Origin: Neocallimastix lanati (nom. inval.)
Taxonomy: Eukaryota > Neocallimastigomycota > Neocallimastigomycetes > Neocallimastigales > Neocallimastigaceae
NCBI GenBank assembly: GCA_016946835.1
Contig: JACVTC010000015.1
Coordinates: 1,536,001 to 1,600,000, forward strand
Length of the DNA stretch: 64,000 nt
Direction: 5' to 3'
The notes under the pieces are model-generated. The model saw nothing but the letters and a program-made list of their open reading frames with translations, did not search any database and was not told the origin of the DNA. Numbering within the stretch: the first letter of the stretch is position 1; each line of letters begins with the position of its first letter. Shown in pieces: positions 8,486-46,535 of the stretch. The position numbers were made by a program, and so were the translations under genes.

Positions 8486-9989
8486 TTTTATTATTTGTTT
8501 TATTATTGTTTGTTTTATAATTGTTTGTTTTATTAATTACTTTTTTTAAGGCTTGTTTTTATTTTATTAATTTGTTTTTAATAAGCAATTATATTAGTTT
8601 TTTTTTTTTGTATTTAAGCGTTTAATATTTTTTAAATATTTATAATTTATATTTTTGAGTATAAAAATTAATGAAGTAAATATTTTTGTTCAAGGAAATG
8701 AATGCTATTTATATTTTTTTTCGAAATCATATAAAAAGTATAATATCTATTTCTTTAAAATAAACTTTTCTAGTAATTATTTTTAGTGAAACATTCATTA
8801 ATTTTATAAAAAAATTAAAACTCTTTCACACATATAATATATATATAATAGAACTAATTAATTTCTACAAATTTCTATATTTTCTACATTTTCTATTTTT
8901 TCTTTATTTTTAATGTAATGTATTATTTCTGTGTAAAATTAAAATGTAATTAATAAAGTTATAATTTTTTTTTTATTTTCTTTATTTTAATTTTTTTTTT
9001 TTTTTTTTTTTTTTTTTTTTTTTTTTTTTTTTTTTTTTTTTTACTTCCGGTGAGTACCTCTCATATTTTCGGTATTTAATTAATTTTTCCTAAATTTTTA
9101 TTTATTAATTTATTTTATTATTTTATTATAATTAAACTATGTCATATTTCAATAATGAGTATGAGTTCTTTGCAATTTTTAAATATATTTGATTTTTGTT
9201 TTAAAATATTTAAATATTAACTGTTGTTTATGTAAATTATAAAATTTTCTATAAAAATATTTGATTTTAATAGTAACGAATTGAAGAATTATAATAATTA
9301 ATTAAAATAAAATAATATAAAATATGAAATTATAAATAATATTTAATTATATTTAACTAATTATTAACTTTTTTTTTTTCAGTTTTATAATGATTGTAAA
9401 TTTATAAATGGATAATTATTTAATAAATAAAATTTTTTCAAAATAAAAAATAAAAAATTTTACTATTAATTAAAATTCTACTAATTTTATCCAATAGAAA
9501 TTAAAATAGAAATTAAACAAAATTTTTTTTAAAATTTATTAATTACATTAAAAATTTATGTAGAAATAATACATTACATTAAATATATAGAAAAAATAGA
9601 AAATGTAGAAATTTGTAGAAATTAATTAGTTTTATCTTTATAATGAAATAGTTTAAATTTTTCTTTTTTAATCAACACATTTTTCACTAAAAAGAATTAC
9701 TAGAAAACTTTATTTTTAAAAAGAAATAGATATTATCTTTTCAATATGATTTTAAAAAAAAAGTATAAATAACATTCATTTCCATGAACAAAATATTTTC
9801 TTCATTAATTTTTTTACTCAAAAATATAAATAATAAATATTTAAAAATATTAAACGCTTAAGTAAAAAAAATATATATATATAATCACATATTAAAAAAC
9901 AATTTAATAGAATAAAAAACAAGCCTTAAAAAAAGTAATTAATAAAACAAACAATTATAAAACAAACAATAATATTTCAAATAATAAAA
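8486..9989. promoter_or_regulatory. divergent spacer P1 with two mirrored promoters, orientation alpha
   Basis: The two ends are mirror images. Going out from each ATG come a T/A-rich leader with CAAACAATTATAAAACAAAC on the plus side, then GCGTTTAA, then the block GGAAATGAATGCTATTTATA about 200 bases from the start codon (a degenerate version at 9770-9790). Next come TTTTCTAGTAAT, then a phased run of TTCTA units at 8862-8902 and its mirror at 9588-9625. The centre is asymmetric: a run of about 50 T (8990-9042), then CTTCCGGTGAGTACC, then a unique ~330-base core. In pairs 2, 3, 5 and 7 the same core lies reversed. Pair 6 has the same core in this orientation with very few differences. Confidence 0.75.
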
Positions 9990-10694
9990 ATGTCTTTATT
10001 CATTCGTGAACATCCTTTATCAATTAGAAGAAATAATTCATTATTAAGAGATTCATTTTTCGATGATTTCGATAAGGCTTTTGATAATGAATTCTTTAAT
10101 CATCCTTTGATTACTTTCCCTACTTTATATCCTTATCCATATCTTTCTTATAATCCAATAAAGTCTTTAGAAAATCAAGTTTCTAAAACATTCAATAGTG
10201 ATATATTCAAATCTGTGGATTTCAGTCCAAAGATTAATTTGAGTGAAGATGAAAATAATTATTATATTCATGCTGATTTACCAGGTATGAAGAAGGATCA
10301 AGTTAAAATGGAGCTTTCAGATGAAGATCGTATTTTAACTATTTCTGGTGAAAGAGAATCTATTATTGATGATTCTGATATGAAATCTAATAAGGATTCA
10401 ACTAAAGAAGAAAATAATAAAGAAAATAATAAAGAAAATAATAAGGAAAATGCCAATGAAAATAAAGAATCCAAAAAGGAAGAACAAAAAGAAACTAAAA
10501 AAGAAGAAAGTAATAATAAGAAATATAGTAGAATAGAATGTAGTTATGGTAAATTTTCAAGATCATTTAGTATTCCTGAAGATGCGGATATTAACAATAT
10601 CCAAGCCAGAATGGAAAATGGAGTTTTAGAAGTTACTCTTAAAAAGATGGAAGCTCAAAAGAATGAACATAAACATTCTATTCAAATTCAGTAA
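9990..10694 (+). CDS. small heat-shock protein Hsp20, copy 2
   Basis: A 234-residue Hsp20 with an intact alpha-crystallin domain, a three-unit NNKE insert and the C-terminal IQIQ motif. It has RDSFF at residues 20-24, a form otherwise found only in minus-strand copies; the other plus-strand copies have RNSLF. It shares PEDADINNIQ with copies 11 and 13, and has NPIKSLENQVSKTFNSDIF in the arm. This mixture suggests past conversion with its minus-strand partner. The 3' flank carries the conserved inverted repeat at 10729-10741 and 10771-10783. Confidence 0.95.
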   Translation: MSLFIREHPLSIRRNNSLLRDSFFDDFDKAFDNEFFNHPLITFPTLYPYPYLSYNPIKSLENQVSKTFNSDIFKSVDFSPKINLSEDENNYYIHADLPGMKKDQVKMELSDEDRILTISGERESIIDDSDMKSNKDSTKEENNKENNKENNKENANENKESKKEEQKETKKEESNNKKYSRIECSYGKFSRSFSIPEDADINNIQARMENGVLEVTLKKMEAQKNEHKHSIQIQ

Positions 10695-10728
10695 ATTTTC
10701 TAATTTATTAATCTTAAATAATTTTAAT

Positions 10729-44405: not shown

Positions 44406-45086
44406 TTACTGAATTTGAATAGAATGTTTATGTTCATTCATTTGAGTTTCCATCTTTTTAAGAGTAACTTCTAAAACTCCATTTTCCATTTTGGCTTGGA
44501 TATTGTTAATATCCGCATTTTCAGGAATACTAAATGATCTTGAAAATTTACCATAACTACATTCTATTCTACTATATTTCTTATTATTACTATCTTCTTT
44601 TTTAGTTTCATTTTGTTCTTCCTTTTTGGATTCTTTATTTTCATTGGCATTTTCTTTATTATTTTCTTCTTTATTTTCTTTTTTTTTAGAATTCTTATCA
44701 GAATCATCAATAATAGTTTCTCTTTCACCAGAAATAGTTAAAATACGATCTTCATCTGAAAGCTCCATTTTAACTTGATCCTTCTTCATACCTGGTAAAT
44801 CAGCATGAATATAATAATTATTTTCATCTTCACTCAAATTAATCTTTGGACTGAAATCCACAGATTTGAATATATCACTATCGAATTTCTTTGAAATTTG
44901 ATTTTCTAAAGACTTTACTGGATTATAAGAAAGATATGGATAAGGATATAAAGTAGGGAAAGTAATCAAAGGATGATTAAAGAATTCATTATCAAAAGCC
45001 TTATCGAAATCATCGAAAAATGAATCTCTTAATAATGAATTATTTCTTCTAATTGATAAAGGATGTTCGCGAATGAATAAAGACAT
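44406..45086 (-). CDS. small heat-shock protein Hsp20, copy 12
   Basis: A 226-residue Hsp20 with a private insert start (SDKNSKKKENKEENNKENAN, one NNKE unit) and KKEDSNNKK. The arm SKKFDSDIF and the 5' flank are shared with copy 3, while the C-terminal KMETQMNEHKH matches copies 8 and 11. Domain and terminus are intact. Confidence 0.95.
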   Translation of the reverse strand: MSLFIREHPLSIRRNNSLLRDSFFDDFDKAFDNEFFNHPLITFPTLYPYPYLSYNPVKSLENQISKKFDSDIFKSVDFSPKINLSEDENNYYIHADLPGMKKDQVKMELSDEDRILTISGERETIIDDSDKNSKKKENKEENNKENANENKESKKEEQNETKKEDSNNKKYSRIECSYGKFSRSFSIPENADINNIQAKMENGVLEVTLKKMETQMNEHKHSIQIQ

Positions 45087-46535
45087 TTTTATTATTTGTT
45101 TTATTATTGTTTGTTTTATAATTGTTTGTTTAATTAATTATTTGTTTTTTTTAGGTTTGTTTTTTTTTATTTTATTAATTTGTTTTTTAATAAGCGATTA
45201 TATTACTTTTTTTTTTTGTATTTAAGCGTTGAATATTTTTTAAATCTTTATTATTTAAATTTTTAAGTATAAAAATTAATGAAGAAAATATATTTATTCG
45301 AGGAAATGAATGCTATTTATATTTTTTTTATGAAATCATATAAAAAATATAATATCTATTTCTTTTAAAAATAAAGTTTTCTATTAATTCTTTTTAGTGA
45401 ACCATAAATCAATTATAAAAAAAAATCATATATAAAATATATAAGTTATCTCTAATTAATTTCTACAATTTTCTACATTTTCTATTTTTTCTATATATTT
45501 AATGTAATGTATTATTTCTATGTAAAATTATAATGTATTTAATAAATTTTAAAAAAAAAATTTTTTAAATTTCTATTTTAATTTCTATTGGATAAAATTA
45601 ATAGAATTTTAATTAGTATTAAATTTTTTATTTATAAAAATATTTATTTTATTAATTAATTTATAAATTTACAATCATAATAGAACTGAAAAAAAAAAGT
45701 TTATAATTAGTTAAATATAATTAAATATCATTCATAACTTCATATTTTATCATATATTATTTTATTTTAATTTATTATTATAATTCTTCAATTCTTTACT
45801 ATTAAAATCAAAAATTTATATAGAAAATTTTATAATTTATATAAACTAAAATTAATATTTAAATATTTTCAAACAAAAATTATAAAGAATTCATCATGAC
45901 ATTAATTGAATAAATATAACATAGATTAATTATAATAAAATAATGAATTAAATTATTAAATAAAAATTTAGGAAAAATTAATTAAATATTGAAAATAGGA
46001 CATGTACATTGGAAGTAAAAAAAAAAAAAAATTAAAACAGAAGAAATAAAAAAAAAAAAAAATTTTAATTTTATTAATTACATTATAATTTTACGTAGAA
46101 ATAATACATTACATTAAAAATAAAGAAAAAATAGAAAATGTAGAAAATATAGAAATTTGTAGAAATTAAATGATGATACCTTATATATCATATATATATG
46201 AAAGGGTTTTATATAATTAATACATGCTTCACTTAAAAGAATTACTAGAAAAGTTTATTTTTAAAGAAATAGATATTATACTTTTTATATGATTTCGAAA
46301 AAAAAAATATAAATAGCATTCATTTCCTTGAACAAAAATATTTACTTCATTATTTTTTTTACTCAAAAATATAAATAATAAATATTTAAATAATACTAAA
46401 CGCTTAAATACAAAAAAAAAAAGTAATATAATCGCTTATTAAAAAACAAATTAATAAAATAAAAACAAGATTTAAAAAAAGTAATTAATAAAACAAACAA
46501 TTATAAAACAAACAATAATAAAATAAATAATAAAA
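45087..46535. promoter_or_regulatory. divergent spacer P7, orientation beta
   Basis: The left half (45087-45560) is nearly identical to the left half of P2, including GCGTTGAATA and GTGAACCATAAATCAATT. The core agrees with P5 (AGGACATGTACATTGGAAG at about 45997). The spacer is therefore a mosaic of P2-like and P5-like parts. TTCTA runs lie at 45461-45491 and 46125-46165. Both proximal blocks are present (about 45300 and 46315). Confidence 0.75.

Follow-up and report, generated by a model that had tools for sequence, protein, structure and literature searches.

Intergenic spacers in an alternating Hsp20 gene array of Neocallimastix lanati have probably been turned singly by past recombination between inverted repeats

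The Hsp20 genes at this locus stand on alternating strands and the spacers between them occur in both orientations, which raises the question of whether single segments have flipped, and by what kind of exchange. The window, i.e. the whole stretch of 64,000 nucleotides that was analysed, holds most of an array of 17 Hsp20 genes (A57; C57:1526180-1583240), which extends beyond the stretch on which the original prediction was made. Genes 5 of 17 (7781..8485, 234 aa), 7 (12579..13271, 230 aa), 9 (17611..18288, 225 aa), 11 (22388..23092, 234 aa), 12 (34458..35162, 234 aa), 14 (39656..40360, 234 aa) and 16 (44406..45086, 226 aa) lie on the minus strand, and genes 6 (9990..10694, 234 aa), 8 (14691..15371, 226 aa), 10 (19495..20175, 226 aa), 13 (36798..37502, 234 aa), 15 (41743..42447, 234 aa) and 17 (46536..47240, 234 aa) on the plus strand. 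The three array genes tested (6, 9 and 12) all carry the Hsp20 / alpha-crystallin domain (PF00011) above the Pfam cut-off. Strands alternate throughout A57 except across an 11.4 kb insert (23093..34457) carrying ORFs for a reverse transcriptase (RVT_2) and an AAA-ATPase-like protein and another of similar appearance, where the expected plus-strand Hsp20 gene is missing. The array comprises 15 short intact spacers and one interrupted interval in series. Close relatives of these Hsp20 proteins from N. californiae and N. 'constans' are listed by a protein search. Neither genome_contigs nor viral_contigs yielded a fungal locus when scanned; one distant bacterial Hsp20 (L024) from the former was set aside.

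To orient the spacers we used landmark scans, allowing up to 2 mismatches, and whole-spacer alignments. Among the divergent spacers (P), P2 (13272..14690; core 13756-14162) serves as the reference orientation, shared by P3 (18289..19494; core 18733-19163, right arm shortened), P5 (35163..36797; core 35633-36098) and P7 (45087..46535; core 45569-46016), all read as plus. P1 (8486..9989; core 9043-9513) and P6 (40361..41742; core 40800-41270) are read as minus and share one core type. The landmark CTTCCGGTGAGTACC is found on the plus strand in P1 (9044) and P6 (40801), and CAATGGACCTGTC on the minus strand in P2, P3 and, at 2 mismatches, P5 and P7; in the alignment both landmarks prove to be forms of a single homologous site, located at the edge of the P core. 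Comparing P1 and P6 with Pa, P2, P3, P5 and P7, the reverse-complemented alignment scored higher in 10/10 pairs, so that the predicted reversal of P1 and P6 relative to P2, P3, P5 and P7 holds with Pa added to the reference set. Pb has a diverged core, and its score differences between orientations were small and mixed. P2 and P7 form a mosaic, 96-100% identical over the left half and 77-97% over the right half of P2.

The convergent spacers (C) gave a similar picture. C5 (37503..39655) and C6 (42448..44405) are placed on the plus strand by landmarks and whole-spacer alignment; C1 (10695..12578) has their orientation, and a C4 remnant (33516..34457), convergent-spacer sequence adjoining the gene at 34458, that of C5. 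C2 (15372..17610) and C3 (20176..22387) lie in the minus orientation, C2 being reversed relative to Ca, C1, C5 and C6 and 93.7% identical to C5 when reversed. The landmark GGATTAAAAAACAAAACC is on the plus strand in C1 (12193) and C5 (39161) and on the minus strand in C2 (15839) and C3 (20582), with 1 mismatch each, and GATGAGGATTCC is on the plus strand at 33798 (C4 remnant), in C5 and in C6, and on the minus strand in C2 and C3. In all 8 pairings of C2 and C3 with Ca, C1, C5 and C6 the reverse-complemented alignment of whole spacers scored higher. C3, which has the orientation of C2, matches it at 98.9% identity and is a recent duplicate. C0 (1..7780, minus; 8.7 kb in all, starting at -901, outside the window) resembles C2 only at its right end, in the C2 orientation (78% over 966 bp; alignment score 992 in the same orientation and 597 flipped). 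None of the four landmarks GGATTAAAAAACAAAACC-CAATGGACCTGTC occurs in C0 within 2 mismatches, and its orientation is therefore called from the alignment to C2. Of the reversals predicted for C0, C2 and C3, those of C2 and C3 are borne out, and that of C0 more weakly.

The original prediction had proposed aligning the spacers in both orientations. For six chosen pairs of spacer centres this gave z scores of 23 to 61 when flipped and 0.1 to 1.7 in the same orientation (50 shuffles). Background levels were taken from self-flip alignments (72-80%) and from these shuffles. The reversed centres are not a chance resemblance. On the P-core tree, orientation changes once within A57 and once within each of two further Hsp20 arrays of this genome, B57 and C632. 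P1 and P6 form one common core type on this tree (100/98 support), their cores being almost identical despite the other spacers between them. The history of A57 needs one P event and one or two C events, the latter read from a weakly supported C-core tree. Since P1 and P6 share a core type and C3 is a recent duplicate of C2, there were fewer flips than there are flipped spacers. The reversals were nevertheless more than one: one P change in each of three arrays, and the one or two C changes in A57. Segments in both orientations are seen only between paralogous spacers, all within one genome. The description of the region as inversion-prone can be kept on the time scale of the duplications, with flips less numerous than flipped spacers.

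Which repeats could have exchanged? High-identity inverted repeats flank the segments in A57, B57 and C632, as also seen on self-alignment of 11 spacers with their flanks. Besides the gene, the recombining repeat takes in no less than 400 bp on the 5' side and 300 bp on the 3' side. In A57, identities of 5' flank, CDS and 3' flank are 87.8/95.4/92.8% between opposite-strand copies and 88.6/95.7/93.4% between same-strand copies; the corresponding values in C632 are 97.4/97.1/97.7% and 97.4/97.2/97.8%. B57 is homogenised only partly, its 5' flank being 91.0% identical between opposite-strand and 95.7% between same-strand copies. The prediction that recombination between the flanking genes flips the spacers is partly supported, spacers having reversed individually in three arrays as it would require, and has to be amended as to the repeat, which takes in both flanks and, in B57, contains the switch points in its 5' flank.

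We then asked what linkage is left between cores and flanks. In A57 the 5' flank tracks the side of the core between -420 and -181 and nowhere else, with a margin of 0.02-0.03, and the gene does not track it; at the C flips, core-side matches are not in excess in the 3' flank (-0.014 to +0.002 from +700 to +1019). C632, too, is without a clear signal. The linkage expected after a crossover has been mostly erased, a point against a crossover origin. An exchange point inside the CDS was considered as well, and the sliding comparison of core side with strand side gave small differences only. The gene halves of C632 fit exchange in the coding region in part (5' half of g3-g7, 98.8%; 3' halves of g5-g7 and g6-g8, 99.6%), but g4-g6 at 97.5% did not, and this reading was dropped.

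The sister arrays allow single turns to be examined. In C632, P2 is 98.0% identical to reversed P3 over 1763 bp, and C1 is 97.4% identical to C3 in the same orientation over 2728 bp. The series g2-C1-g3-P2-g4 and g5-C3-g6-P3-g7 hence differ in orientation at P only. P2, P3 and a T2 remnant are of one core type, which occurs here in both orientations. In B57, P1 and P3 run in the same orientation to ~420 bp, are flipped in the centre and run in the same orientation again from ~1780. Counting the ungapped sites that discriminate the two orientations, the inner parts gave 25 flipped vs 0 same on the left and 17 vs 0 on the right, and the outer arms 25 same vs 13 flipped on the left and 26 vs 8 on the right; one outer window (position 2020) reads flipped. 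The distance from the ATG to the switch is 445-492 bp on the left and 378-416 bp on the right (378-387 with gapped sites), which places the switch within or beside a stretch of 97-100% arm likeness (left-arm positions 360-480). Mapped onto one arm, the two intervals (423-474 on the left, 378-416 on the right) do not overlap. B57_P2 had no recognisable core in the scan.

Array C334 kept its orientation in 5/5 P and 3/3 C spacers compared, the weakest pair, C3-C4 (78.8 vs 76.2%), being hardly informative. Its opposite-strand 5' flanks, at 75.7% identity, do not rise above the level of unrelated alignments in this DNA (72-80%), and its CDS are 94% identical across strands with no flip seen. Either gene identity alone is insufficient for flipping, or the sample is too small. 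At C739 a two-gene block has been duplicated in inverted orientation (g1-g4 98.0%, g2-g3 97.6%, g1-g2 87.4%), and it is this duplication that makes its two divergent spacers 97.7% identical when reversed.

The original prediction also suggested that flips reassign promoters and 3' ends among copies. Wholesale reassignment is not supported, given that the near flanks belong to the homogenised repeat and that those of B57 have mostly kept their strand, as the strand-true majority of sites in its outer 5' arms shows. Because a flip exchanges near flanks only for near-identical ones, flips are probably close to neutral. The heat-shock element scanned for was the two-unit motif nTTCnnGAAn or nGAAnnTTCn, and none was present in the 450 bp upstream of any of the 31 genes of A57, B57 and C632 (0/31).

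The origin of the P core was considered separately. A search with window positions 13700-14200 gave no indication of a mobile element, the strong matches listed all lying in Hsp20 arrays; those listed outside such arrays were 68-71% identical, and among these the match in C747 adjoins an Hsp20 remnant. The search scores the best candidates and skips very common words, and may miss rare or low-complexity copies. In 14 convergent spacers or array-end flanks a P-core homolog was placed, its end 334-441 bp away from the gene 3' end; three array-end flanks with weak or no match (A57 C7, Cz and B57_R) were dropped from this set, and the A57 insert was kept apart. In two head-to-tail arrays, C741 and C119, the predicted core orientation scored higher in 13/13 tandem spacers and exceeded the best of 4 shuffles in 12 of them, with one tie, while the other orientation beat the best shuffle in 1/13; three spacers between opposite-strand genes had no clear match and were excluded from the counts. 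The P core may share ancestry with the head-to-tail spacers, the scores being modest.

Taken as a whole, these findings make it probable that spacers were turned one at a time by historical recombination or conversion between inverted repeats, in addition to duplications of two-gene units. A57 would be a run of near-identical inverted repeats of ~1.4 kb, each consisting of the Hsp20 gene with ~400 bp of flank on its 5' side and ~300 bp on its 3' side, in alternating direction with unique spacer centres between them. Neighbouring inverted copies would recombine on one chromatid, gene conversion keeping the repeats alike and an occasional crossover turning the spacer between them, and exchange between next-nearest copies, which point the same way, would duplicate or delete two-gene units. 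Flipped centres, homogenised arms, a two-gene duplicate, the turn of a single spacer in C632 and, in B57, switch points that fall within the arms are seen directly, and inversion by inverted copies is supported since the individual reversals in A57 and in two sister arrays match its prediction. That each exchange was a within-chromatid crossover, and not reverse copying of a spacer from elsewhere, is our inference. Such copying would be initiated in the repeat arms, by ectopic conversion, break-induced copying or template switching, and would replace a spacer by an opposite-orientation copy of another, with nothing turning in place. Mosaic spacers, the near identity of the P1 and P6 cores across intervening spacers and the single core type of C632 P2, P3 and T2 would all suit it, and the outer arms of B57, which are mixed, and its switch intervals, which do not match, suit patchy conversion. 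The mostly strand-specific outer arms of B57 P1 and P3 suit a local turn, although conversion limited to the centre would leave the same picture, and we regard reverse copying as unlikely.

Inverted duplication of multi-gene blocks, with single spacers never flipped, does occur in this genome, at C739, and the matching orientations of P1-C1-P2 and P6-C6-P7 partly resemble a block duplicate. As a general explanation it is nevertheless very improbable, because in C632 a P spacer is turned while the adjoining C spacers are not, and because in A57 C2 is turned relative to C5 and C6 while P2 is not turned relative to P5 and P7. Furthermore, only 7 of the 14 scorable neighbouring P/C pairs along A57 agree in orientation and 7 disagree (manual count, Pb and C0 being weak). 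Misjoined inverted repeats could also give wrong spacer orientations, repeats of ~1.4 kb being difficult for short reads. We consider such an artefact highly improbable, given that average likeness between the repeats is mostly 88-98%, short of identity, that private variants distinguish the flipped copies, that contigs reach megabase size (the assembly used here is 199.0 Mb in 762 contigs) and that C334 is free of such flips; the N. lanati genome is described as 201.0 Mbp in 970 scaffolds at 62x coverage (PMC12341934). A site-specific recombinase acting at defined short sites, for which the only hint is the regularity of the spacer boundaries, has next to no probability: in B57, the sole case with a placeable switch, the exchange points lie inside long homologous arms, and Pfam named no such enzyme among the 9 window ORFs tested.

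The usual evidence for concerted evolution of inverted gene families is the identity of the genes alone. Here each spacer in addition stores an orientation bit, and turns leave a mark that conversion of the genes does not erase, so that one genome offers many parallel tests: arrays with homogenised flanks flip, and in C334, with strand-specific flanks, none was seen. This bears on the reason for the many near-identical chaperone genes in these fungi and on the frequency of crossover among exchanges between inverted copies. It is quite doubtful that A57 is a live inversion register, with each of its 15 intact spacers still turning independently in growing cultures. If it were, one isolate would carry many orientation combinations, and the homogenised repeats would serve as a permanent engine of recombination: the chaperone genes would stay alike, at the cost of continual near-neutral turning.

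A search from which most subscription journals lay outside found no title on such arrays of heat-shock genes in anaerobic fungi. Among the systems described in the papers cited, the closest is the flip/flop region of Saccharomyces chromosome XIV, 24 kb with 15 genes between two 4-kb repeats, reported in many strains, for which non-allelic recombination, occasionally resolved by crossover, has been proposed (Salzberg et al. 2022, PMC9731477). As in that account, both orientations occur between inverted gene copies, the copies are homogenised by conversion and reversal is recurrent; unlike it, the present case has 15 short spacers and one interrupted interval in series, with sister arrays, in one genome. 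Palindrome P6 of the human Y, as reported by Hallast et al. 2013 (PMC3723533), likewise combines arm-to-arm conversion with rare inversions by within-chromatid crossover, but Y palindromes are large and single, with arms >99.9% alike and rates measured in people. Template switching in S. cerevisiae is described as making the arms of inverted repeats alike and inverting the spacer (PMC8604942); that case differs in its short repeats, in changes limited to a few neighbouring bases of coding DNA, and in resting on switching during replication and not on crossover. Dipteran hsp70 clusters, too, are reported to hold heat-shock genes in inverted pairs homogenised by conversion, but with few copies, and the rearrangements reported, in some clones, are an altered order of genes and an inverted pair, as opposed to spacers reversed in series (PMC3071340). 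Yeast and human chromosomes already offer examples of the mechanism; a whole array of invertible spacers is unusual.

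Landmark words, whole-spacer alignments and shuffles were concordant in indicating that spacers of the Hsp20 array overlapping the window (A57) lie in both orientations, as the original prediction held. The divergent spacers P1 and P6 are reversed relative to Pa, P2, P3, P5 and P7, and the convergent spacers C2 and C3 relative to Ca, C1, C5 and C6. C0, which had been grouped with C2, has this orientation at its right end only, and the C4 remnant is oriented like C5. Among six chosen pairs, spacer centres stood 23-61 z units above shuffles when flipped and at most 1.7 when unflipped. 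Part of C2 (16649-16866) matches many other contigs, mostly at 81-85% identity, indicating that C spacers contain a genome-dispersed repeat.

A57 holds 17 Hsp20 genes (C57:1526180-1583240, on the window's contig), and all three window genes tested were identified as Hsp20 (PF00011). Gene strands alternate, the sole exception being an 11.4-kb insert (window 23093-34457) in the place of a missing plus-strand Hsp20 gene. The insert carries a reverse transcriptase ORF (RVT_2; 25566-27359), presumably of Ty1/copia type, an AAA-ATPase-like ORF (PF09820; 24248-25306) and an ORF of similar appearance (27343-28221). The array is bordered by a pair of ORFs (48354-50130) that encode GDA1/CD39 nucleoside phosphatase domains and are probably exons of one gene. 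The window (C57:1536001-1600000) is strongly AT-rich and belongs to an assembly of 199.0 Mb in 762 contigs; PMC12341934 lists N. lanati, a gut-dwelling anaerobe among the Neocallimastigomycota fungi, with 201.0 Mbp in 970 scaffolds, near this assembly, not equal to it.

The cleanest case of a flip was found in the sister array C632, where g2-C1-g3-P2-g4 compared with g5-C3-g6-P3-g7 (g, numbered genes) gave identities of 98.2, 97.4, 96.2, 98.0 and 97.3% for consecutive elements. Only the divergent spacer is reversed while the remaining four elements match unflipped, and therefore a larger inverted block is no explanation. P2 and P3 are 98.0% identical reversed and still 89.2% unreversed because their arms are palindromic. 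These oppositely oriented spacers are no more diverged than the same-orientation pair P1-P2 of this array (97.1%), so turning occurs on the time scale of duplication. C739, elsewhere in the genome, has two divergent spacers that match at 97.7% when one is reversed, but their two distinguishable flanking genes moved along, making this a plain inverted duplication; it illustrates a block event, and such events need excluding case by case.

Most probably, adjacent inverted copies undergo homologous recombination with each other. Conversion would maintain their likeness, crossover in a minority of exchanges would turn the intervening spacer, and exchange between next-nearest copies would alter copy number in two-gene steps. 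Exchange points were sought in B57, a sister array on the same contig, where P1 and P3 match unflipped in the outer arms, apart from one outer window (position 2020) that reads flipped, and flipped in the centre; windows 1140-1300 represent an insertion in P1. Orientation-informative ungapped sites were 25 flipped versus 0 and 17 flipped versus 0 at the centre edges, 25 same versus 13 flipped in the left outer arm and 26 versus 8 in the right. Measured from the start codons, orientation switches at 445-492 bp on the left and at 378-416 bp on the right, in or next to the stretch where the two arms are most alike (97-100%). Projected on one arm, the intervals (423-474 and 378-416) are adjacent with no overlap; this falls short of proving one clean crossover, and later conversion or patchy exchange must be allowed. 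The core-side signal in A57 is small and confined to the outer 5' flank of P spacers, with none in the 3' flanks of C spacers. Flips could also arise by reverse-oriented copying with no in-place crossover, which we consider unlikely; that they are in-place crossovers we hold to be probable.

In A57 and C632, opposite-strand copies resemble each other about as closely as same-strand copies over 400 bp of 5' flank, the CDS and 300 bp of 3' flank; the B57 5' flank shows partial strand specificity (91.0% for opposite-strand versus 95.7% for same-strand genes). By this strand comparison the repeat unit is larger than the gene: the gene, originally taken as the recombining inverted repeat, is part of it, and so are its 5' and 3' flanks. 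Since flanks are homogenised with the gene, what a flip moves is the spacer centre, and each gene retains its flank or gains one nearly identical to it. The idea that flipping reassigns promoters and 3' ends found no support. Across A57, B57 and C632 (31 genes), no start codon has a canonical two-unit heat-shock element in the 450 bp upstream, which is odd for heat-shock genes.

In the alternating array C334, CDS are 94% alike across strands, yet 5' flanks compared between strands reach only background identity (75.7%), and the 3' flanks show partial strand specificity (80.1% opposite-strand versus 87.4% same-strand). No flip was seen among the five divergent and three convergent spacers compared, a set that omits the fourth convergent spacer (6.8 kb) and includes a C3-C4 pair near background; the divergent spacers differ by 4-8%, yet are unflipped. 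This small sample suggests that flipping goes with homogenised flanks, not with coding identity alone.

Separate flips are fewer than flipped spacers. P1 and P6 of A57 have the same type of core, with near-identity across the centre (support 100/98 on the core tree), and C2-C3 (98.9% identity, same orientation) together with P2-P3 (96.0%) look, from their sequences, like a two-gene duplication. A57 requires one orientation change among P spacers on the core tree and one among C spacers, or two with C0 counted, on a poorly resolved C tree. The P-core tree comprises 15 cores from A57, B57 (C57:111-131 kb) and C632, omitting B57_P2, whose core was not above background, and the P-like remnant of the A57 insert. 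It places at least one orientation change inside each array and four overall, array directions being arbitrarily treated as comparable.

The 14 convergent spacers and end flanks retained for comparison have a P-core homolog at a distance of 334-441 bp from a 3' end, and such a homolog was found in the predicted orientation, with modest scores, in 13/13 head-to-tail spacers of the Hsp20 arrays C741 and C119. Head-to-tail arrays are the probable ancestors of the alternating ones. The C741 array (C741:1476862-1512379) is mainly head-to-tail, its 13 genes lying in blocks of four minus, four plus and five minus, an arrangement such as inversion of a block of four genes would produce. Similarly spaced Hsp20 genes, some with equal scores, occur at C33:9590-43982 and C563:7509-15132, possibly a duplicate or allelic contig.

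Equal logic, recombination between inverted copies, is proposed for the Saccharomyces flip/flop region (PMC9731477), and conversion with rare inversion was measured in human palindrome P6 (PMC3723533). Compared with both systems as described there, the serial array is the distinguishing feature of the N. lanati case.
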